Shown in pieces: positions 977 to 36,129 of a stretch of DNA of 64,000 nucleotides (its first letter is position 1; each line of letters opens with the position of its first letter). The stretch comes from Paenibacillus sp. DMB20. Lineage in GTDB: Bacteria > Bacillota > Bacilli > Paenibacillales > Paenibacillaceae. The notes beneath the pieces were generated by a model. The model made no database searches. It had not been told where the DNA came from and saw only the letters and a program-made list of their open reading frames with translations. The translations under genes and the position numbers were made by a program. The stretch is from NCBI RefSeq assembly GCF_000987955.1, contig NZ_LAZU01000037.1, positions 372,001 through 436,000 of the forward strand, in the 5' to 3' direction.

Positions 977-3770
977 TTATGCTGAAAGGTTTGCACTTTT
1001 TGTCATCATGCCGCGTCTATTCCGATGGCGGCGTCCGCCCCACACGCTTCCCGCTCCCATGAGGAAGGTCGGGATTCCTCCTGCGACAAGCGTAATGGCC
1101 CACTCCCTGAAGCCGAGCGGAACGGTTTTGAAAATCGGCTGCAGCGCTTCAATGTACATCACGCCAAGCATAAGCAGGACCGAGGACAGAACGGCAAGCA
1201 CAAGGTACTTGTTCTGAAGCGGATTCCGGTGGAAGACCGAACGCGAGCTGCGGCAGTCGAACACATGGATGAGCTGTGCCATGACAAGGGTCGCAAAAGC
1301 AACCGACTGCGCTTTGGCCAACTGGCCGGCCTGATCCGGTGCTGTCCGCAGCGTAAGCCAGAACGCTCCCAATGTGCAGAAGCCGATCAGGACGCCGCGG
1401 CTTATGATTTTCCAGCCCAGGCGTCTTGCGAAAATGTTCTCCTTGGCGCCGCGCGGCTTGTGCTCCATCAGATCCTTTTCGGGCTGATCGACGCCGAGCG
1501 CCATCGCAGGAAGTCCATCCGTCACAAGGTTCACCCATAGAATCTGGATGGGTGCGAGCGGGAGCGGCAGTCCCATCATCATGGCAAAGAACATGGTCAG
1601 GATTTCGCCCACATTGGAAGCGAGAAGATAGCGGATAAACTTGCGGATATTCTCGTAGATGCTCCGCCCTTCTTCAATCGCCGCAACGATCGTTGAGAAA
1701 TTGTCGTCGCTGAGCACAAGCGCGGAAGCCTCTTTGGTCACGTCCGTACCGGTAATGCCCATGGAGATTCCGATATCGGCGGCTTTGATGGCAGGTGCAT
1801 CGTTCACCCCGTCTCCCGTCATGGCCACCACATGCCCTTTCCGCTGCAGCGACTTCACGATTCGGAGCTTATGCTCGGGCGACACCCGGGCATATACGTA
1901 AGTCTGGTCCACTTTGGCATCCAGCTGCTTATCATCCAGCCGCGACAACTCCTGCCCTGTCATGGAAAGTCCTCCACGCGGCATGATGCCGAGCTGGGAA
2001 GCAATGGCTTCCGCCGTCGTACGGTGATCGCCGGTGATCATGACGGTTTTGATTCCGGCGCGGCGGCAGATGGCAATCGCATCCCGCACCTCGCGCCGCG
2101 GCGGATCGATCATGCCGGCCAGGCCCGCAAAGACGAGTTGGCATTCAGCTTCTTTTTCGTTCTCCGGCTTGTCGTAAGGCCTGAGATCCCGGTAAGCCAG
2201 GCCAAGCACGCGAAGTGCATCCGAGGCCATCGCTTCATTCGCGGCCAGAACCTTTTGCCGCAGGGTTCCCGTTAACGGCACGACATTGCCTTCCCATAAT
2301 ATATAGGAACAGGCATCCAGCAAGACGTCCGGAGCTCCCTTCGTGCACAGCAGGCGTCCACCTTGATGGCTGACGATCACGGTCATCAGCTTCCGTTCGG
2401 AATCGAACGGAAATTCCTTGTCCCGCTGGTAGGAAGACGTCAGGCTGGATTTGGGCAAGCCCATTTTGGCGGCAAGCGTAAGCAGCGCCCCTTCCGTCGG
2501 ATCCCCTTTCAGTTCCCAGACCGCGCTGGGCGGCGCCGTTTCCTTCGACTTTTTCTTGCTTCTTGCCTCTTCCTGAAGGTTTTCGTATATCTCCGCATTG
2601 TTGCATAATCCGCCGATCTGCAGCAGCCTCCGCAGCGCCTGGTCGTTGCGCAGCTCCACGGGTTTTCCGCCCTGCAGGATCTGGCCTGACGGCTCATAGC
2701 CTTGGCCGGTGACCTCCAGCACCCTTCCTCCGGTCCAAACCCGGGTAACGGTCATTTTATTTTGGGTCAGCGTGCCGGTTTTGTCCGAGCAGATGACCGA
2801 AGCGCAGCCAAGCGTCTCGACGGACGGAAGCTTCCGGACAATCGCCTTCCGCTTGATCATCCGCTGTACGCCAAGCGCCAGCGCGATGGTCACGATCGCG
2901 GGCAGCCCTTCGGGAATCGCGGCCACGGCCAGACTGACGCCGGCAAGGAACATCCCCGCAGCGGGCTGGCCGTGCAGAATTCCCGCTACGACCACCATGA
3001 CCGTAAGCCCAAGAGACACGCCGATCAGGATTTTGCCAAGCTGCTCAAGCCGATGCTGAAGCGGCGTTTCCTGAGACTCGGTACTCTGAATGAGGTCGGC
3101 GATTTTTCCCATTTCGGTATCCATCCCGGTACGGATGACCACGCCTTTGGCCGTGCCTCTCGTCACCATCGTACCCATATACCCGATATTTTTCCGGTCG
3201 CCAAGCGGCACATCCTGTTCGGCAATCGGGCCGGCATGCTTGTTCACCGGCAGCGATTCTCCCGTAAGCGCAGACTCCTCCACGCTGCAGCTGCTCGTTT
3301 CGAGCCAACGGACGTCGGCGGGAATCCGGTCCCCGCTCTCCACCAGGATGATGTCCCCCCGGTACAAGCCCCCGGGCGCCGATATGAATGACTTGGCCGT
3401 CCCGAAGCACCTTCGCCCCCGGCGCCGACAGCTGCTTGAGCGCCCGCAGGGAGCGTTCTGCCCGGAACTCCTGCATAAAGCCCAGCACGCCGTTGATCAG
3501 AATGATCGCGATAATCGTCACGGCGTCCAGGTACTCGCCCAGCAGCCCGGATACCAAGGTGGCGCCGAGAAGCACAAGTACCATGAAGTCCTTAAATTGA
3601 TTCAAAAACAGCGTGAACGGCGATATTTTCTTTCCTTCGGACAGCTCGTTCCACCCGCTGGTTTTGCGCCTTTCCCCCGCTTCCTCTTCCGTGAGGCCCT
3701 GTTGCGGATGGACTTGCATCACCTGCTGCAATTCGTCGACATCCATCTGGTGCCATAACTTTTGTTCCAT
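977..3770 (-). CDS. P-type Ca2+-transporting ATPase (YloB/SERCA-like), frameshifted in this sequence
   Basis: Type IIA cation pump expelling Ca2+ across the membrane using ATP. Visible in order: an N-terminal cation-ATPase domain ([13 protein letters not shown]), the actuator TGES loop, the M4 ion-binding PEGLPA, the phosphorylation motif CSDKTGT, the hinge [10 protein letters not shown] and a C-terminal membrane region. The frame breaks at a run of six C on the plus strand (3355-3360). Reading five restores LVPGDI and one protein of about 930 residues. Start ATG at 3770 has GGGAGGGAAAGGGAG before it. It is divergent from rqcH; the orthologues yloB and yloA are also neighbours in B. subtilis. 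The break is probably a sequencing error. Confidence 0.9.
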
Positions 3771-16030: not shown

Positions 16031-16418
16031 TTATTTAGCCCGGCTTGAGATGTCCTCAATTTCGTCATCCTTAAAGGAAACGCCTTCGACTTTAACGTTA
16101 ACCTCAACGACCCGGAGCCCCGTCATGCTCTCTACCGCTTCGCGGACGTTCTGTTGGAGCATGCGGCAAACTTCATGTATGGGTGTCTCGTACAGTACGA
16201 TAATGCGCAGGTCAATCGCAGCTTCCAACTGGCCTACTTCCACCGTTACGCCTTTTTTGCACGTTTTTGCCGCTGAGACGTTTAGCCCAGCCTTCGGACA
16301 ATCCTCCGGACATCGCGGCGATCCCGGGGGTTTCCAAGGCCGCCATTCCTGCAATTTTCGAGACGACATCATCCGATATCCGAATTAAACCGTTATCCAG
16401 TTGAAGTTGTTCCGCCAT
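16031..16418 (-). CDS. Asp23/Gls24 family envelope stress protein, frameshifted here
   Basis: Recognised from the N-terminal GLIRISDDVVSKIAGMAALE and the C-terminal VNVKVEGVSFKDDE with EVCRMLQQNVREAVESMTG. Family members (YloU, YqhY, Asp23) are soluble or membrane-tethered proteins linked to envelope stress or fatty-acid homeostasis. A T6 run on the plus strand (16253-16258) splits the frame. With five, NVQKGVTVEVG joins the halves into about 128 residues. ATG 16418 has AGGAGG eight bases upstream. YloU versus YqhY cannot be resolved with certainty. Confidence 0.85.
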
Positions 16419-16552
16419 GCCAAAATCCTCCTTCACCCTCATTATCCGTATTGTAAATCCTAACCGGTATAAAAAGCAAATCCGTGTTTATTTTAGCGTT
16501 TATTTCCTCGAAATTTTTGGGTATAGTGTTAAAGGGTAATTCATTATTTACA

Positions 16553-17771: not shown

Positions 17772-17818
17772 AAAAAGCGTCCGGCGAACAGAAAATCCGC
17801 CGGACGCTTTTTTTTTTG
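17772..17818 (+). terminator. Terminator of the Ca2+/H+ antiporter gene
   Basis: AAAAAGCGTCCGGCG pairs with CGCCGGACGCTTTTT across an 11-base loop, followed by T9. Confidence 0.92.
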
Positions 17819-17820
17819 CG

Positions 17821-17955
17821 TTTATACTTTCTTATCTCTTAAGAAAAACGTCTATCGACGCACATTTTCAAGGGGAAGCCAGACCGCATATAGCGGAAGT
17901 TTTTCTTGCGATATAAGGATGGCAAACCTCTGAAGTTTGTACTTTCTTATCTCTT
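17821..17955 (+). repeat. Dispersed intergenic repeat, copy C (best preserved, with direct-repeat ends)
   Basis: Most complete copy: AAGAAAAACGTC, then AGACCGC-atata-GCGG, GTTTTTCTTGCGATATAAGGA, and a right arm with GTACTTTCTTATCTCTT. A near-identical TATACTTTCTTATCTCTT also precedes it (17824-17841), so the unit is bounded by direct repeats about 116 bp apart, suggesting a partial tandem duplication. Confidence 0.7.
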
Positions 17956-17956
17956 C

Positions 17957-17993
17957 AAAAAAACGCATGCCATCCTTCCCTACGCATGCGTTT
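17957..17993 (-). terminator. Terminator of ylaN
   Basis: On the minus strand AAACGCATGC pairs with GCATGCGTTT and is followed by a run of T (A run at 17957-17963 on the plus strand). Confidence 0.88.
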
Positions 17994-18018
17994 CTATGTA
18001 TCGCCTGTCTAGGACAGG

Positions 18019-18306
18019 CTACTCTGCTTGATTCATGGCTTCATACAACAGAGCCAGGTTGCGTTCCAGCTTGCTTAACAGCTGTTTCCCTGCAGCTTCA
18101 GGAAGAAGTCCGGCACGTACCGCAAAGTCGACCTCTCTCGAAAACCCGTACATTTGGGTATCCAGCACTTCCTCATAGAGAGGGCAGTAACGGGTTGCCA
18201 GATTCTCCATCTGCACTTCAATGAGCTTTTGAATTTTATCTGCATCTTCATGTAGAAGACTGATCGCTTTAAGATTCAGCTGTTCCTGCAAATCAGATGA
18301 AGTCAT
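18019..18306 (-). CDS. ylaN: YlaN family protein (DUF1507)
   Basis: A 95-residue soluble protein with the family signature [20 protein letters not shown] and VDFAVRAGL. YlaN is conserved in Firmicutes and has been linked to iron homeostasis through an interaction with Fur. ATG 18306 has GGGGGGAAG before it. Its closeness to ftsW resembles the ylaN-ylaO arrangement of B. subtilis, although here several genes intervene and strands differ. Confidence 0.92.
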
Positions 18307-18418
18307 GATCTTCCCCCCTATGTCAATATCACAGCACGGTTACTACCTCTAATATTAGACGAAATCGCAAGTCAATACAAGGACCAGTTCTAAAGTACCC
18401 GTTAATGCGCCTGATCAT

Positions 18419-18456
18419 TAAAAAACACCTTTCCTGAAAAAGGAAAGATGTTTTTT
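18419..18456 (-). terminator. Terminator of the HPr-like gene
   Basis: AAAACACCTTTCC pairs with GGAAAGATGTTTT around a short loop. A run of A on the left gives the T tract on the minus strand. Confidence 0.88.
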
Positions 18457-18462
18457 CGGAAA

Positions 18463-18708
18463 CTACTCGGCTACTACGTTTACATTCAAGCCGTGCTTGT
18501 TAAATACGTCGATCATCGCTTTTTTCGCTTCATCGGCATCCGGCCCGTGAACATGCAGTTCATAGCTCTGATGGCTAACCAGCGTAGTGAACAAACCGAG
18601 AATGCTTTTAACGTCGATGTACTTGTTTTCGGCCTGCAAAACGATCGAGGAAGTAAACTGGCCTGCGGTTTGGGCGATTTCCACGACCGCTGCATTGTTA
18701 TTCGACAT
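18463..18708 (-). CDS. HPr-like protein lacking the phosphoryl-accepting histidine
   Basis: 81 residues of HPr fold. AVVEIAQTAGQFTSSIVLQ aligns with helix 1 and strand 2 of HPr, and YIDVKSILGLFTTL with the Ser46 region. The chain starts at the position of the active-site loop: counting back 31 from Ser35 (Ser46 equivalent), Asn4 occupies the His15 position, and the GLHARPA motif and first strand are absent. It therefore cannot act as a normal PTS phosphocarrier, but could keep a Crh-like regulatory role through Ser35. GGAGGG seven bases before ATG 18708 and no in-frame upstream extension show that the short N-terminus is real. Monocistronic. Confidence 0.82.
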   Translation of the reverse strand: MSNNNAAVVEIAQTAGQFTSSIVLQAENKYIDVKSILGLFTTLVSHQSYELHVHGPDADEAKKAMIDVFNKHGLNVNVVAE

Positions 18709-18800
18709 ACGAATCCCTCCGTATCATAAAAATAAAAACCATTGCTTCATTGCTCCTTCATGATACATTGAATCCGTTTTCCCATGCAACCTATTTTGTC

Positions 18801-19917
18801 TTATTTTAAATTTTCCGGGTTTAGCCCTTCGAGCTCGGGAACGACAAACAGGCCGTCCTTGCGGATCAAAACGTCGTCAAAGTATATTTCCCCGCCGCCA
18901 TATTCCGGACGTTGGATCAGGACAAGATCCCAGTGAATGGATGAGCGATTGCCGTTGTCCGTTACGTCATAAGCTTGACCTGGCGTGAAGTGAAGGCTGC
19001 CCGCGATTTTCTCGTCAAACAGAATGTCCTTCATCGGAGACAGAATGTACGGGTTGAATCCGATCGCAAACTCGCCGATATAGCGCGCGCCTTCATCGGA
19101 ATCGAGAATTTCGTTAAGACGGGCGGTATCGCTGCCGGTAGCTTCTACGATTTTTCCGTTCTCGAAGCGGAATTTGATGTTTTCAAACGTCACCCCGTTA
19201 TACAGGGTCGGCGTGTTGTATGAGATCGTGCCGTTAACGGAATCCCGTACCGGTGCGGTGTAAACTTCGCCGTCCGGAATATTTTTTTTGTCCGGAGCAT
19301 TTCTCCGCGCCGATGCCCTTGATCGAGAAGCTGAGGTCGGTTCCCGGACCGATGATGCGGACTTTATCGGTCTTTCTCATCAATTCGGCCAGCGGGTCTT
19401 GGGCACGGTCCATTTTGGAGTAATCCAGGTTGCACACGTCAAAGTAAAAGTCCTCAAAAGCCTCCGTGCTCGTGTTTGCAAGCTGTGCCATGCTTGCGTT
19501 TGGATAGCGCAGCACGACCCATTTGGTGCGCTTAACGCGTTCCTCGCTATGTACGGAATGCTGATAGATCGAGTTGTAAAGCTTCATATTTTCTTCCGGA
19601 ACGTCTGACAGGTCGTTTACATTCTCGCCGGCACGGATGCCGATATAGCAGTCCATCTTCTTCATCCGTTCCAAATCCAGCTCGGCCCATAAAGAAAGCT
19701 GTTCCTTCGTTGCATTTTTCAGCATGGCGCGTTGCACCGTTCTGTCTGTCAGCTGGACAAAAGCATGCCCGCCCTTCTTGCCTACTTCTTCAATGATGGC
19801 ATTAAGCAGGTCGCGCTCGGAACCGATCATTTCGATCAGTACATTTTCGCCCGGCTGCATATCTACCGAATAACCGACCAGATTCTCGGCCAGCTTCTGA
19901 ATTCTTGGATCACGCAT
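18801..19917 (-). CDS. M29 family aminopeptidase (AmpS/PepS-like), frameshifted here
   Basis: Dinuclear-metal cytoplasmic aminopeptidase. The N-terminal half ([18 protein letters not shown]) and C-terminal half ([48 protein letters not shown], which hold the expected Glu, His and HxD ligands) are in different frames. The T8 run on the plus strand (19282-19289) read as seven restores [17 protein letters not shown], which supplies the missing metal-ligand glutamate. Corrected length is about 371 residues. ATG 19917 is preceded by AAGGAGGG. Confidence 0.88.
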
Positions 19918-20039
19918 GGGTTGTTCCCTCCTTGAGCTGATCCGCTGCCCTATGCCCAAACAATTGAACAGCGGTTAAATTTCATTCCTATATTGTAGCA
20001 CGGCAGATCGTTCGCGTCAGCCGGGGGTGGGCAAGGGTT

Positions 20040-23549: not shown

Positions 23550-24150
23550 ATGGCACGTTACACCGGTCCTAAATTTAAATTGAGCCGTCGCGTGGGTATT
23601 TCCCTCAGCGGTACTGGAAAAGAATTGAAGCGTCCTTTCCCTCCGGGACAGCATGGTCCTAACCAACGGAGAAAAATGAGCAACTACGGAATGCAGCTTC
23701 AAGAAAAACAAAAAACTGCGTCATATGTACGGTCTGGGTGAGAAGCAATTCCGCACCCTGTTCGATAAAGCAACAGGTATGAAAGGTATCGCGGGCGAGA
23801 ACTTCATGTTCCTGCTTGAGAGCCGCCTGGATAACCTCGTTTACCGTCTTGGGCTCAGCAACTCCCGTGCGGGTGCTCGCCAGTTGGTTGCCCATGGCCA
23901 CGTAACCGTAAACGGCAAAAAAGTGGATATCGCATCCTACGCAGTTACGCCTGGTGATGTTATCGGTCTTCGTGAAAGAAGCCGCGGCCTGTCCGCTATC
24001 AAAGATGCTTTGGCTAACCGCGTACATCTTCCGGCTTACCTTGAGTTCGACGAAACGGCTATGGAAGGCAAGTACATCCGCCTGCCTGAGCGTTCCGAAT
24101 TGTCTCAAGATATCGACGAGAAGCAAATCGTCGAATTCTACAACCGTTAA
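23550..24150 (+). CDS. rpsD: 30S ribosomal protein S4, frameshifted in this sequence
   Basis: Primary 16S rRNA-binding protein of the small subunit and its own translational repressor. [16 protein letters not shown] starts the protein; the S4 RNA-binding domain is [20 protein letters not shown] followed by [12 protein letters not shown], and it ends [22 protein letters not shown]-like. An A6 run at 23710-23715 shifts the frame after QEKQK. With five [18 protein letters not shown] is restored and the protein is 199 residues, the expected length. A real frameshift in this essential gene is implausible, which makes it the best internal control that the sequence contains homopolymer errors. Confidence 0.95.
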
Positions 24151-24537: not shown

Positions 24538-27500
24538 ATGGTTGAGGAGAAAAAACAGGAGCCTGAAAACGAGCGCCCTCCTAAACGATCCATTGGACGA
24601 AAGATAGGATCGGTCATCGGCTGGCTCTTCGTGATTGGACTCATGGGTACCCTGTTCGTGGGAGGAGCCGTCTTCGGCTACATAACCTCTATTGTCAAAG
24701 ATGAGCCTGTAAGAACCAGAGCTCTTATCGAACAGAAAATGAACGATAACGCCGTTACCGGCTTCGCCTACTTTGGCGACGGCTCTCCGATCGGGCAGCT
24801 TCGCACAGAGGAAGACCGGCGGCCCGTGGAGTATTCGGAGATACCTCAGATCGTCATTGACGCGGTTGTATCCATTGAAGATAATCGTTTTTATACCCAT
24901 GATGGCGTCGATTTCATGGGAACCGCCCGGGCCGTTAAGCAGCGTCTTTTAAATGAACCGGTCCAGACCGGGGGAAGCACGCTGACCCAACAGCTGGCAA
25001 GACAAGTGTTTCTGAGCCGGGACAAGACAAGCGACCGCAAAGTCAAAGAAATTTTGCTGGCCTTTCGCTTGGAGCGTTTCCTGACCAAGGAACAAATCAT
25101 GACCGCCTATTTGAATAAGGTCCTTACGGAAACGGTTCGAACGGCTATAACGTATTCGGCATTAAAGCTGCCGCCAAAGGAATTTTTAACATCAGCGACC
25201 TGAAGAAGCTCAATCTCGCCCAGGCAGCCTATCTGGCAGGTCTCCCACAGCTCCCGTCAGCCTATTCGGCTTTTAACGGGGTCGGCGAATTCGATGCAAA
25301 ATCATTCAAGCGAGCCTTGAAACGCCAAGTTCTGGTGCTTGACCGTATGCTGGAGGAAGGAAAAATCACTCCTGCCCAGTATAAAAAAAGCGAAAGCATT
25401 CGACATTAAGAAATCGCTTGCGCCGCGAACGCAGAAGGCTTACGTGACCTACCCTTACCTCATGATGGAAGTGGAGCGGCAGGCCTCAAAAATATTATTG
25501 GAGCTTAACCATCCTGACGTCGATAAGGAACAGACGAAGGAAAACGGCGAGCTGATGGATGAAGCACGCACGCAGCTCAGTACCGGAGGATACCGGATTT
25601 ATACGACGATCGACCGGACCTTATACGGAGCCATGCGCAAAATAGCCGAGGACGACAGCAACTTCTTCCCTGACAGCAAAACGAAAGGGAAAGAGCAGAC
25701 CGCGGCCATGATGATCGATAACAAAACCGGCGCCATCCTAGGCATGATCGAAGGGCGCGACTTCAAAACCGAGGAAATGAACTATGCCACCCAAATGGTC
25801 CGGCAGCCCGGATCGGCCATGAAGCCGATCGCCGCCTTTTTGCCTGCGCTGGATTCGGGTAAAGTACAGCCAGGAAGCATCGTGGATGACTCGCCGATCA
25901 TACTGAAGAACGGTAGCAGTTACCATATTCCTAAAAACGTAAACTGGCGTTATAAAGGCCTTATGACCGCGAGAGAGGCATTGAACAACTCGACGAACAC
26001 CGTTGCTCTTAAACTGTTCAATAATTCCATCGGCATTGAGAACGCATGGGAGTTTGCCAAAAAGCTCGGCATCACCACGCTCGTAAAAGAGGACTATTCT
26101 TCAGGGACCGGCGGAATAGGCGGGCTCACTTACGGCGTATCCGTAGAGGAGTTGACGAACGCCTATACCTCCATCGGCAACAAAGGCAAGTTCGTCGACG
26201 CTTATATGATCGAAAAAATCGTGGACTCGAACGGCAAAATCGTTTATAAACACGAAGCCAAGCCCGTGCAGGTCTATTCCGAGCAGACGGCTTATCTTAT
26301 GGCCGACATGATGCGCACGGTTATTACCAACGGCTCCGGCAACACGGTTCGCGACAACTACAAGCATTTCAATAAAGTACCGATCGTCGGCAAAACCGGT
26401 TCCAGCCAAAGCTATGGAGACAGCTGGTTTATGGGCCTCTCCCCGGATGTTACGGTTGGGGTATGGGTCGGCTACAAGCATTCCGTAAACACCTTGGATA
26501 AACCGCAACGAATACACGCCCAACAAATTTGGTCGAAAATCATGAACGAAGCGATCCATCTGAAGCCGAATCTGTTCAAGACGCATGAGTTCAAAAAACC
26601 GGAGGGCATCGTCTCCAAAACGGTATCGGCTTATAGCGGAAAGCTTCCGTCGGCGTTGACCGACAGGTTCGTGACGGACCTGTTTAACGCGAAGTTCGTG
26701 CCGACGGAAGTGGACGACAGTCTGACCAAAGCCAAATATATTACGTACAGAGGCGCGAACTACATCCCAAGGGATGGAACGCCTTCAGATATGCTGAAAG
26801 AGCGGGTCGTCATCAAACGCGAAAAACCGATCGACGAATTAATCAAAGAACTTGAAGCTGCCTTTGCCGTCATGCGCGGAAATCATGAACCATTGCAATT
26901 CTACATTCCGGAGGATGCCAATAAAGGTATGCCAACGAAGATCGATCCGCGGGTAGACGACGGCAGAGCCCCGACCCCGCCGAAAAACATGCATTATTCG
27001 CGCCAGAACGGCAAAGCCGTCATCAGCTTTGCCCCGAGCGGCTCTCCCGATGTCGTAGGATATCGACTGTACCGCTCCATCAGCGGCGGCCCGTTTGTCC
27101 GTGAAGGTGGGGTCGTTATGGCCGATGATACCAAGCAATTCGTGACAAGCTCGGGTTCAAGCGTATCTTATTACGTTGTAGCGGTGGACGTTGCAGGTAA
27201 AACTTCGGAGCCAAGCGCCATCGTCGGCGCAGGGTTTGTACCCGATCCGGATCCCGTGCCTGACAAGAAAAGCGAAGTAGACGGCACTGTCGTGCCGGAT
27301 GATCAAACAGCGGAAGAAACGCCTGATACCTCGCAGGGGCCCGCATCCATTCCGCAGCAGCCGGGACAGCCGACATTCCAAGCAACTCCCGACGGCTTTA
27401 AGGCGTCGTGGAATGCCAATCCGCCGCAGGATCAAATCACGCAGTACAACGTCTACTTCAGTCCCAACAATGACGACGCTTTTCAAATGATCGGCTCCAG

Positions 27501-27621
27501 CCAAAGCCAAGAGTATTACTTTAAAGCCAACGGTCCCATTAGCGGAACCTTCAGGATTACCGCTGTCAATGGGCTCGGTGAATCGTCGCCTTCACCGACG
27601 GTATTCTTTGAGAAAGAATAA
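24538..27621 (+). CDS. Class A penicillin-binding protein (PBP1-type), two indels in this sequence
   Basis: Bifunctional transglycosylase-transpeptidase, about 1027 residues. In order: basic N-terminus, membrane anchor about residues 34-55, GT51 motifs EDNRFYTHDG, GGSTLTQQLARQVF and KEILLAFRLERF, then the transpeptidase with SAMK, STN and KTG (VGKTGSSQ). At the C-terminus are FN3-like repeats (VVGYRLYRSISGGPF; ITQYNVYFSPNND) split by a Pro/acidic linker. A missing T near 25124 (LNKVLYGNGSNGYNVFG restored) and an extra A in A7 at 25383-25389 (YKKAKAFDIKK restored) break the frame in opposite senses. Similar to B. subtilis ponA in architecture. Confidence 0.9.
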
Positions 27622-29501: not shown

Positions 29502-29542
29502 TGATTGCATCCTCCTCATTTTTAAATCGTTCTCCTACTTGT

Positions 29543-29556
29543 GGACAGCGCTTACA
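29543..29556 (+). promoter_or_regulatory. Candidate CcpA operator (cre) in the acsA-acuA intergenic region
   Basis: GGACAGCGCTTACA matches the 14-base cre pattern TGWNANCGNTNWCA at all constrained positions but the first. It lies 42 bp upstream of the acsA start. The B. subtilis acsA and acuABC genes are known to be CcpA-repressed, and ccpA lies 2 kb away here. Confidence 0.65.
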
Positions 29557-29786
29557 AATGATATGAATGAAACATTAGAATACACAAACGGCTGGTCATC
29601 ATGCAGCTTCGGGTCGTCGTGCACTGACCTGATGATTCCCAAGGAATCTCGGAAGTCAATAAGTATAATTGTGAAGGTTTTATGTCGAAGTGATTATATC
29701 ATAATTGGCGTTTTCCTGTCATTGCTTTTCATTTTTTTTATTTTTTTTGCTATAAGTAGGGTATGTACTTGAAAGGAGCGTACCTG

Positions 29787-30419: not shown

Positions 30420-30510
30420 ACCGAGCCAAAGTCCAACATGCGGCTAAACGCAGTTTCTTCGGGGTAAAGAATGAATCCGTTTTCGTGAAATTTATAAATT
30501 CTTTAATTTA

Positions 30511-31448: not shown

Positions 31449-32459
31449 CTACTCGTTCACATGGCTTACGGAAAGACGAAGAATCGTCTCATGCGGCAAA
31501 ATGACGCGAGGGTTGTCCACATTTTCCTTCTTCATCAGCTTGGTGAGCAGACGCATCGCGACCGCCCCCAGGTCGTACATCGGCTGGGCCACGGTGGTCA
31601 ACTGAGGACGAACCATGGACGCCATACGGATATTGTCCACGCTGATAATCGAGAAGTCGTCCGGAACCTTATAGCCTTCATCCTGAATGCTGTGGATCGC
31701 TCCAATAGCCATTTCATCCGTTGCGGCAAAAATAGCCGTCGGCTTCTTCTTGAGGCCAAGGAAGTACTTCATGGCTTCCACTCCGGATTCATAGCGGTAG
31801 TTGCCTATGCGCACAAGATCTTCCTGGTATTCGATGCCGGCAGCCTCAAGCGCCTTCTTGTAACCCTGGAAACGCGCATAACCGTTAGCCGGATCCTGCA
31901 GCGTGCCGCTGATCATTGCGATCTCGCGGTGGCCATGCCGAATCAGGGTGTTAACCGCATCAAATGCAGCCTGTTCATGATCGATGTCGACCGAAGGATA
32001 CGAGCCTTTCTCGTCGCGGGTTGCGCACAAGACGATCGGCACGGCAGAAGTCTGAAATGCCTGAATATGCTCGTCCGTCACGGTTCCGCCCATAAACAGC
32101 AGCCCGTCCACCTGCTTCTCGAGCAGGGTATTGATGACACGAATTTCCTTTTCCTTCCGCTTGTCGGCATTACACAAAATGATATTGTAGTGGTACATGT
32201 TGGCGATATCTTCAATCCCCCGGGCAATTTCAGCGAAAATGGAGTTTGAAATGTCAGGGATGACAACGCCGACTGTTGTCGTCTTCTTGCTGGCCAGACC
32301 TCTGGCCACCGCATTCGGACGATATCCCAAACGCTCTATCGCTTCATAAACTTTTTTTCGGGTCTGAGGCTTCACGTTGGGGTTGTTGTTAACTACCCGC
32401 GATACCGTGGCCATCGATACGCCTGCTTCACGCGCCACATCGTAAATGGTTACCGTCAA
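31449..32459 (-). CDS. ccpA: Catabolite control protein A (LacI family)
   Basis: Global carbon catabolite regulator that binds cre sites together with Ser46-phosphorylated HPr or Crh. [23 protein letters not shown], followed by the hinge [13 protein letters not shown] and a periplasmic-binding-like core. The HPr/Crh contact stretch and the C-terminal [19 protein letters not shown] are strongly CcpA-like. I place the start at TTG 32459, giving [10 protein letters not shown] like B. subtilis, with GGAGAGAAGG upstream; an ATG 15 bases earlier is possible. Possible targets in this window are acsA/acuA and the PTS genes. Confidence 0.93.
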
Positions 32460-32558
32460 ATTCCTTCTCTCCATTGCCAATAAATTTTCAATCATACGTT
32501 CAAAAGCCAATTAAATTTATGATACGACAAATTAATGCTTTGTGCAATCACGAAGGCC

Positions 32559-34365: not shown

Positions 34366-36129
34366 TTATGAAGCCGAGCTTCCGGGATTGCCGTTTTTGG
34401 ACATGGAGCTGTTTCTCTCCGCAAAAAGAGTAAGCCGCTCTTCGACCATGGCACTGCTGCGGAGCTTGAAACAGGCCTCCGCCTCCCGCTCGGCCTCTTT
34501 TGCATCCGTATTCAATATACGGTGCTTCACGTTCAGCAAGGACAGCGGCGACATGCTCAAATCTTCTACCCCCAGCTTCAGCCACAGCGGAATGGCACGC
34601 TCATCCCCGGCAAGCTCTCCGCAAACACTGACCGGAATACCGGCCTGCTTGGCAGCTTCCACCGTAGTCCGAAGCATGCGGAGCACGGCAGGATGGAACG
34701 GATGGTACATATGGGCAATCTGTTCGTTCATGCGGTCAACTGCCAGCACATACTGGACAAGGTCGTTGGTCCCAATGCTGAAAAAGTCGCATTCCTCGGC
34801 CAGCAAATCGGCAATCATGACAGCCGCCGGGACTTCGATCATGGCCCCCACCTGAATGTCGGGATCATAGGAAAGCCCTCTTTGGTCAAGATCGGCCATA
34901 GCGAGCTTTAACACTTCATTGGCCTGCCTTACTTCGTCAACGGACGAAATCATGGGGTACATAATTTTCACTTTTCCATGGCAACTGGCCCGCAGGATGG
35001 CCGTCAGCTGCGTCTGGAACAACTCCTTGCGGTCCAGGCTTATTCGGATTGCACGGAATCCGAGCACCGGATTTTCCTCTTCCGGCAAAGCGAAATAGTC
35101 CAACTGCTTGTCACCGCCGATATCCAGCGTACGAATGACGACGGATGAATCCCCCGCCTTCTCCGCAACCTGCCGGTATACTTCAAACTGCTCGTTTTCC
35201 GTCGGAAACGTATTCCGATCCATATAGAGAAACTCCGTACGGAACAGGCCGACGCCCTCCGCGCCGTTCCGCAAGGCCGTATCCAACTCTTTCAAGGAGT
35301 TTATGTTGGCCGCGAGCCGGAAATACGTGCCGTCCTTCGTCACGGCTTCCACGGAAGAAAGCAGCTGGAGCTGCTCCTTTTTCTTCAGTTGCTGACTCCG
35401 GATGCCCGTATACCGGTCAATCACTACCTGATCAGGGTTAATGTAGAGGTAGCCCTCGTCACCGTCAACAACCAGGAACTCTCCTGTCTGGATAGGCTTC
35501 TCCAACCCGCTTTCAATGCCGGATACCAGCGGAATGCCGATCGCCCGGGCCATAATGGCCGAATGGGACGTCTTGCCGCCCGACATCGTGACGATCCCCA
35601 GGACGTGCGAAGGATTAAGGTGGGCAAGCTGTGACGGAGAGAGCTCCTTGGCCACGAGGATATACGGCTGCGTATCCGAAGGCAAAGTGACCTCCGGAGC
35701 CCCTAGCAAATGCTTCAGGAGGCGGTTTCCGACATCCTTGATGTCCATCGCCCGCTCTTTCATGTATTCATCGTCCAGGAGGTCGAACATCGAGACGAAA
35801 TGATCAATGGCTTCCTTTACCGCAACCTCGGCGGCCTTGTACTGACGTTCGATCAGCCCCTGGATTTCATTCATGAACACAGGGTCCTCCAAAATGGCGA
35901 GATGCGCGTCAAAAATATGGGACTCCTCGTCTCCCACCATTTCTTTGAACTCGTTCTTGATATATTCGATTTCATCTTTGGAGGTTCGGATGCCTTCATA
36001 AAGGCGCTCGAACTCTTTGGCCAAATCTACGGCGTCGATTTCGGAATCCGGCAGATCAAGCTCCCAATGCGGAAGCACGAACGCTTTTCCGAGCGCAACG
36101 CCCGCTGCTGCGCCAATGCCTTTTATCAT
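34366..36129 (-). CDS. ptsI: PTS enzyme I (phosphoenolpyruvate-protein phosphotransferase)
   Basis: First phosphotransfer step of the PTS, from PEP to HPr. N-terminal MIKGIGAAAGVALGKA; the phospho-histidine is in SGGKTSHSAIMAR; the C-terminal PEP-binding barrel contains GAEGVGLFRTEFLYMDR, GAMIEVPAAV, IGTNDLVQY and the catalytic cysteine loop VSVCGELAGD. 587 residues, a few more than usual at the C-terminus. It overlaps the PTS permease stop by ATGA, so it is translationally coupled. No ptsH is in this cluster. Confidence 0.95.
   Translation of the reverse strand: MIKGIGAAAGVALGKAFVLPHWELDLPDSEIDAVDLAKEFERLYEGIRTSKDEIEYIKNEFKEMVGDEESHIFDAHLAILEDPVFMNEIQGLIERQYKAAEVAVKEAIDHFVSMFDLLDDEYMKERAMDIKDVGNRLLKHLLGAPEVTLPSDTQPYILVAKELSPSQLAHLNPSHVLGIVTMSGGKTSHSAIMARAIGIPLVSGIESGLEKPIQTGEFLVVDGDEGYLYINPDQVVIDRYTGIRSQQLKKKEQLQLLSSVEAVTKDGTYFRLAANINSLKELDTALRNGAEGVGLFRTEFLYMDRNTFPTENEQFEVYRQVAEKAGDSSVVIRTLDIGGDKQLDYFALPEEENPVLGFRAIRISLDRKELFQTQLTAILRASCHGKVKIMYPMISSVDEVRQANEVLKLAMADLDQRGLSYDPDIQVGAMIEVPAAVMIADLLAEECDFFSIGTNDLVQYVLAVDRMNEQIAHMYHPFHPAVLRMLRTTVEAAKQAGIPVSVCGELAGDERAIPLWLKLGVEDLSMSPLSLLNVKHRILNTDAKEAEREAEACFKLRSSAMVEERLTLFAERNSSMSKNGNPGSSAS

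Follow-up and report, generated by a model that had tools for sequence, protein, structure and literature searches.

HPrL, a shortened and slowly evolving HPr relative without the histidine-phosphate part, is a core protein family of the Paenibacillus order

HPr is a textbook two-input switch, with a histidine for sugar uptake and a serine for catabolite control. His15 and Arg17 of HPr touch CcpA, and in lactic acid bacteria HPr phosphorylated at the serine (Ser-P-HPr) brings about inducer exclusion. Crh, known from Bacillus and its relatives, is described in PMC9631020 as acting with CcpA in its Ser-P form and with methylglyoxal synthase in its unphosphorylated form. Here, we describe a protein, designated HPrL, encoded in a 64,000-nt stretch of the Paenibacillus sp. 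DMB20 genome (hereafter, the window). Among the literature matches listed on HPr, CcpA, and catabolite repression in Paenibacillus, there was no title on a Paenibacillus HPr, and no title on the HPrL protein appeared among the matches listed. Searches for Paenibacillus together with HPr-like and Crh, with "HPr family phosphocarrier protein," or with HPr and tripartite tricarboxylate gave no matches.

The HPrL gene lies on the minus strand at positions 18463–18708 of the window and encodes 81 amino acids, which the ORF translation, profile, and structure comparison identify as an HPr fold without the first strand and His15. The first-pass annotation had recognized this ORF correctly, but the gene had to be assigned to the minus strand; the plus-strand translation of the same bases is unrelated. 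The ATG (18708–18706) is preceded at a distance of 6 nt by a Shine-Dalgarno sequence, GGAGGG (18715–18720, minus strand), and codons D32–L39 (DVKSILGL, 18592–18615, minus strand), which include that of Ser35, are invariant in an alignment of 31 sequences. Past the stop codon, the gap between HPrL and the downstream gene contains a terminator-like hairpin (18418–18458), which the scan scored on the plus strand alone, at 18429–18447. The downstream gene (18019–18306, minus strand) is ylaN, of the DUF1507 family, and it adjoins HPrL in 89/89 main loci. YlaN is the protein called Fpa in S. aureus and is tied to iron control in the account of PMC11559061. Upstream of HPrL, an M29 aminopeptidase gene (18801–19959, minus strand) is split into two frames by an apparent frameshift. 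No Rfam family matched the region 17800–19000 at E-values up to 1.

Genes read in two frames also occur elsewhere in the surroundings, presumably encoding an Asp23-type protein (16031–16442), RpsD (23550–24150), and a penicillin-binding protein (24538–27621), all named by eye. With apparent frameshifts in at least four genes near HPrL and a contamination of 9.3%, the assembly looks indel-prone, and truncation by error therefore needed to be ruled out. For this purpose, 80 orthologues from named genome records were read in the three coding-strand frames over 150 nt upstream. All 80 had the identical start position behind a Shine-Dalgarno sequence, and the number of open codons 5′ of the start was at most 15 in 68 of them, with a maximum of 43. 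Neither H-x-R-P nor G-[LIFV]-H-A-R was found upstream in any of the 80 orthologues within these frames and this distance, so that no orthologue had an upstream extension bearing His15 and the reading of HPrL as a short protein stands. An in-frame G-[LIFV]-H occurred in six orthologues, always directly 5′ of the start codon; in these cases, the bases of the GGAGGGATTCAT-like Shine-Dalgarno region were read as GGIH, and their interpretation as HPr remnants was rejected.

The relationship to HPr was evident from sequence profiles. HPrL matched the Pfam family PF00381 with an E-value of 6e−8 and 33.1 bits (cut-off, 23), which makes it a member of the family, although the match spans only profile positions 20–80 of 81. 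In a phmmer comparison with solved proteins, the E-values were 1e−7 for HPr and 5e−4 for Crh. The narrower models gave scores below their cut-offs: 34.7 bits (cut-off, 110) for the NCBIfam HPr equivalog NF010352, which the ptsH gene product of the same genome (L003) likewise fails to reach with 100.4 bits; 32.7 bits (cut-off, 47.9) for the subfamily TIGR01003; and 28.3 bits (cut-off, 123) for NF010354, on which another HPr protein of this genome, L001, scores 128.8 bits. We take NF010354 to be the Crh model; its library title is "HPr family phosphocarrier protein." A circular permutation of HPr was considered and rejected: query residues 62–77 scored −0.2 bits against the HPr N-terminus in phmmer, which is chance level, and in the best structural alignments the two chains are matched in order from beginning to end.

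An AlphaFold model of HPrL was built from 31 sequences (mean pLDDT, 81, with the five models at 64–81; pTM, 0.66). It comprises helix 2–15, strands 21–26, 29–32, and 48–54, helix 58–71, and strand 75–78; these details are uncertain in helix 2, which the model forms only poorly, and in residues 1–10, where the mean pLDDT is 70. Foldseek placed HPr (1ptf) first, with an E-value of 6.6e−5, and Crh (1mo1) fourth, and the sequence identity to HPrL was 24–33% across the nine rows with E < 0.001. In structural alignments with VIA-align, the best 27 rows were all HPr or Crh, with Z-scores of 9.0–10.4 over 68–76 residues. The model thus superposes on HPr and Crh without strand 1 and without the GLHARP loop, and carries a short extra strand after helix 3. 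In 10 of these 27 rows, including the top two, the first aligned pair was model residue 4 with chain residue 15, whereas the other 17 rows began with model residue 1 or 2 on chain residues 10–12, so the register of the first residues is soft. The 4/15 register, in which Asn4 corresponds to His15, Ala6 to Arg17, and Ser35 to Ser46, is shared by the sequence alignments through the conserved QTA-x-x-F and KSI-x-G motifs, and Asn4 of the model lies at or adjacent to the His15 position. It was also considered, from the alternating pattern V9-x-I11, that strand 1 had been kept and that the excised part was the His loop with half of helix 1; the model shows helix 2–15 instead, and this arrangement is likely, though not certain.

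These results confirm what had been read from the bases at the outset, namely an HPr-like protein with Asn at the His15 place and no GLHARPA motif, an N-terminus beginning at the active-site loop without strand 1 (seen both in the profile match from position 20 and in the model superposition), and the motif VKSILGL, whose Ser35 occupies the place of Ser46. The PF00381, phmmer, Foldseek, and structural alignment results are all well above chance. The first-pass annotation had left open an HPr derivative or an unrelated binding module; the profile, phmmer, and fold matches uphold the former, and the latter is dropped. HPrL is a shortened, slowly evolving HPr relative in which the histidine-phosphate part has been lost.

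HPrL is a core family of the Paenibacillus order and is rare outside it. It was found in 100/100 genomes of the genus and in 295/295 genomes of the family, covering 19/19 genera, with best E-values of about 5e−39 or better among the matches listed. In the order, 146 of 149 genomes gave a match at the default threshold; 145 of these were strong (E ≤ ~1e−38), one was a weak match of ordinary HPr strength (G727), and three genomes had no match. In a sample of the class (n = 398), the only strong matches beyond the order were in G508 (91 bits) and G491 (78 bits), the remaining ones scoring no more than 42 bits, as ordinary HPr does. In the family of G508, none of the three other genomes gave a match. 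When a phylum sample (n = 398) was searched with a wider profile at an E-value of 1e−12, there were seven matches, all from the family to which the window belongs. For comparison, the ptsH of this genome had a full-length match of at least 75% in 56/61 genus genomes (its own counted), with 64–66% in G079 and G011, and only partial pieces in G092. It was weak in G007 (4e−14) and G016 (1e−11), yet both carry HPrL; within the genus, HPrL is thus no less universal than this ptsH. A second HPrL copy, which is partial, makes G069 the sixth genus genome with two; it was left out of the fetched loci.

Residue conservation was counted over 109 distinct proteins from 178 loci, some places having been fetched twice. 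Lys34 and Ser35 were kept in 108/108 distinct proteins with that column, even in paralogues with 47–63% identity, and loss of Ser35 across the family was not seen. The sole gap is the broken paralogue in L121 (approximately 2940–3176), a tct-linked copy interrupted by a stop codon (one TAA, G032). Position 4 was Asn in 90 of the 109 proteins, Ser in 6, His in 3, and another residue in 10; position 6, the place of Arg17, was Ala in 75 and Arg in 7, all seven in the distant and paralogue set. E50 was present in 97, H52 in 99, H54 in 94, and H72 in 106 of the 109 proteins; to our knowledge, these are not HPr family residues. The invariance of Lys34-Ser35 extends over all paralogues with that column, in which the strand-4 residues vary. 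Among 22 diverse members, the invariant columns were A15, S20–V23, D32, K34, S35, L37–L39, L51, G55, and D57. The dN/dS values were 0.00–0.10 for pairs with a computable dS (6/11 window comparisons showed saturation, and seven of the eight close pairs were computed). Strong selection acts on the DVKSILGL helix face and also, within the main group, on strand 4 (YELHVHG).

In a phylogenetic tree that combined 22 rows of HPrL proteins and paralogues with six ptsH orthologues and this genome's three other HPr proteins, but lacked the window protein, the 22 rows formed one clade (support 95/98). A second tree, to which the window protein and two orthologues were added and from which the longest branch (L002) was removed, contained the same clade with 25 rows (100/97). 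Both trees gave long-branch warnings and had weak forks (14/28 open in the first and 10/30 in the second), and they were consequently used only for the HPrL clade and for the place of L177 and L178. His4 occurs in L177, L178, and L180, each without the Arg-Pro that follows His15 in HPr. As both trees place L177 and L178 within the main group, His4 as a remnant of His15 was rejected, and reversion or chance is the better reading.

The genome also holds the other parts of an HPr system. Three further HPr proteins are encoded, L001 (GLHARPA), L002 (FHVRPA), and the ptsH product L003 (GIHARPA), together with two HprK-type genes (L005 and L006). In the window, a CcpA equivalog lies at 31449–32510 (498 bits; cut-off, 442) and PTS enzyme I at 34366–36129, 13–16 kb from HPrL and on the same strand. 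HprK was found in 148/149 genomes of the order, including all 145 with HPrL, and many genomes of the order sample had two to five HprK-type matches. G735 has neither HprK nor HPrL; HprK occurs without HPrL in G714 and G721, and together with the weak HPrL match alone in G727. Because HprK is present in 148/149 genomes, its co-occurrence with HPrL is almost uninformative.

Between the peptidase gene and HPrL, a promoter-like block, TTGCAT-18 nt-TATCAT (18760–18789, minus strand), begins 11 nt past the peptidase stop codon. Its −35 half is poor against the consensus, and a sigma-70 consensus scan of 18000–19000 found nothing. The spacer contains a partly cre-like 13-base element, GAAAACGGATTCA (18769–18781, minus strand), conserved in most relatives examined; the block common to close relatives between the peptidase stop and HPrL reads TTGCAT-AAG-AAARCGGATTCAA-TATCAT. 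Of 117 distinct upstream regions, 78 contained the core GWAARCGGATWCA exactly and 85 contained it with at most one mismatch, on the coding strand in every case, as against 5/2340 in the shuffle control; 23 regions had nothing within two mismatches. This core resembles a CcpA site (cre) without the leading T. The window element has two mismatches to the 16-base consensus WTGNNARCGNWWWCAW. At most one mismatch to WTGNNARCGNWWWCAW was found at seven places in the window (5.1 expected), which is not above chance and does not include the HPrL element. Within one mismatch, WTGNNARCGNWWWCAW occurred in 39/117 upstream regions and 40/2340 shuffles, a comparison that is not a probability because the upstream regions are related. 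Upstream of the distant L170, the 14-base cre consensus occurs without mismatch (TGTAAGCGCTAACA, compared by eye). The genome contains eight exact copies of GWAARCGGATWCA (reversed-pattern control, 0), three of them within long ORFs (L229, L231, and L232), and these copies define no clear regulon. A second exact copy of GAAAACGGATTCA lies at 30472–30484 of the window (minus strand) between two convergent genes, and a cre-like site with one mismatch lies at 29542–29557, 23 nt 5′ of a gene that by eye is acsA-like. Judged from these sequence patterns, control of HPrL by CcpA through the element is a plausible lead, not a result.

The neighborhood of the main copy is weak functional evidence, because the whole region is syntenic. 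The M29 aminopeptidase gene was linked in 79/80 first loci, was inverted in L100, L105, L109, and L113, and was not detected near HPrL in L112, L168, and L182; it was therefore rejected as a functional partner, and ylaN is the constant pair. The paralogue loci are more telling about function. In 12 fetched paralogue or distant loci, a subset of those existing, the tricarboxylate transporter gene tctA lay nearby on the same strand in seven (L117–L121, L174, and L176), counts that are not independent because L118–L121, L174/L176, and L177/L178 are close relatives. A malic enzyme gene adjoins the paralogue in five (L117–L121). An eighth locus, L175, encodes a CitA-like kinase together with its regulator, and relatives of this kinase also flank L174 and L176. 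FAH-family hydrolase genes were present in three loci (L170, L177, and L178), and L169 had none of the tct, malic, CitA, or FAH genes. No such genes were found within about 4 kb in any of the 89 main loci. The gene order is tctCBA-terC-HPrL-malic in L117, tctA-malic-HPrL in L118–L121, and tctCBA-HPrL in L174 and L176, showing that the link to tctA or malic enzyme holds despite changed gene order. Whether the paralogues have an organic-acid target is, in our judgment, an evenly balanced question.

HPrL probably works as a regulatory binding protein and not as a phosphate carrier. HPr-type phosphorelay is impossible for it because His15, the loop, and the first strand are all missing, which supports the earlier statement that it receives no phosphate from enzyme I; such transfer is almost certainly excluded. 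A regulatory role through protein contact is very likely. Phosphorylation of Ser35 by HprK has about the same chance of being right as wrong, since no relative shows a change in this face, yet helix capping would keep it too. Moreover, Ser46 is also conserved in the HPr of bacteria without HprK, so the invariance of Ser35 does not prove phosphorylation. We propose, at roughly even confidence, that HPrL is a phosphotransfer-dead, HPr-fold regulator of carbon metabolism, with Ser35 as a switch operated by HprK and with organic-acid metabolism as the original setting. According to this proposal, the family's ancestor would have lost strand 1 and the His15 loop, apparently only once, and acquired a short strand at the C-terminus. 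HprK would phosphorylate Ser35 in response to carbon status, and either the modified or the unmodified form would bind a target protein in carbon metabolism, as Crh binds CcpA or methylglyoxal synthase. Crh, whose Ser-P form acts with the former and whose unphosphorylated form acts with the latter, is therefore a model for both kinds of action. The paralogues suggest that the original setting was the uptake and catabolism of tricarboxylates and malate; against this, the main HPrL copy is not within an organic-acid operon.

The alternative that survives best, although we consider it rather unlikely, is that HPrL is a phosphorylation-independent binding subunit, in which Ser35 would serve for helix capping. 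Paralogues would then have the transporter or malic enzyme encoded beside them as partner, whereas the core copy would bind another housekeeping target through the conserved strand-4 face (E50, H52, and H54) and H72. The high conservation of these four residues and the persistence of paralogues near tctA or malic enzyme under shifting gene order agree with this; on the other hand, Lys34-Ser35 is invariant across all paralogues with the column and the strand-4 residues are not, and the partner is only putative. Also unlikely, and slightly more so, is a Crh-like corepressor, in which HPrL phosphorylated at Ser35 would occupy the HPr site of CcpA and steer it to a subset of cre sites. Ser35, Ile36, Leu37, and Gly38 agree with the CcpA-contacting helix of HPr, CcpA is present, and both the unbroken conservation of Ser35 and the seven proteins with Arg at the Arg17 position would suit such a role, but in HPrL itself, His15 and Arg17 are replaced by Asn and Ala, and if the upstream element were a cre, CcpA would repress HPrL exactly when Ser-P forms arise. 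With the His15 and Arg17 contacts gone, we regard CcpA as a doubtful partner. It is very improbable that HPrL acts as a decoy or competitor that titrates HprK and buffers the Ser-phosphorylation of HPr: the kinase target face is kept without the histidine side and HprK is co-present throughout the order, but that co-presence is uninformative, and the conservation of strand 4 together with dN/dS values of at most 0.10 where computable suggests a specific partner. Finally, the idea that a mis-called start or frameshift masks an ordinary HPr, for which the frameshifted genes nearby could be cited, is refuted by the same start in 80/80 orthologues and the lack of an HPr N-terminus in the three coding-strand frames.

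HPrL constitutes an order-wide, phosphotransfer-dead, strand-deleted HPr family. It would separate the two functions of HPr, with the histidine half deleted, the serine half unchanged throughout the order, and paralogues at tricarboxylate transporters, and it offers a small protein through which carbon control in Paenibacillus can be tested. More tentatively, and with less expectation of being correct than the proposal itself, HPrL could represent a third class of HPr signaling beside HPr and Crh: a strand-deleted, His-less, serine-only adaptor, of which the paralogues would be carbon-status subunits in tricarboxylate transporter and malic-enzyme clusters and the core copy would couple sugar status to another housekeeping process order-wide. 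With HPr (PtsH, PF00381; 1ptf, 1y4y, and 3le1), HPrL shares the fold from helix 1 to helix 3 and the Ser46 motif KSI-x-G, whereas it lacks the first strand, the GLHARP loop, His15, and Arg17, and adds a short C-terminal strand. Crh (1mo1 and 1mu4), like HPrL, lacks His15 and keeps the Ser46 region, but it is a complete HPr chain in which only His15 is changed, whereas HPrL has no strand 1. Their gene positions also differ, Crh following whiA and HPrL standing beside ylaN; the gene after the whiA-like ORF here, the position of Crh in Bacillus, is L001 (1465–1758), which scores above the NF010354 cut-off with GLHARPA intact. The comparison with Crh made in the first-pass annotation thus holds for a His15-less HPr relative with the Ser46 region but is otherwise loose, since Crh keeps the full fold and a separate Crh-type protein, L001, is present. 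Inducer exclusion by Ser-P-HPr, in which an HPr-type protein acts on a transporter, would fit the tct-linked HPrL paralogues; it uses ordinary HPr, whereas the HPrL case would involve a separate, His-less paralogue encoded beside the transporter.
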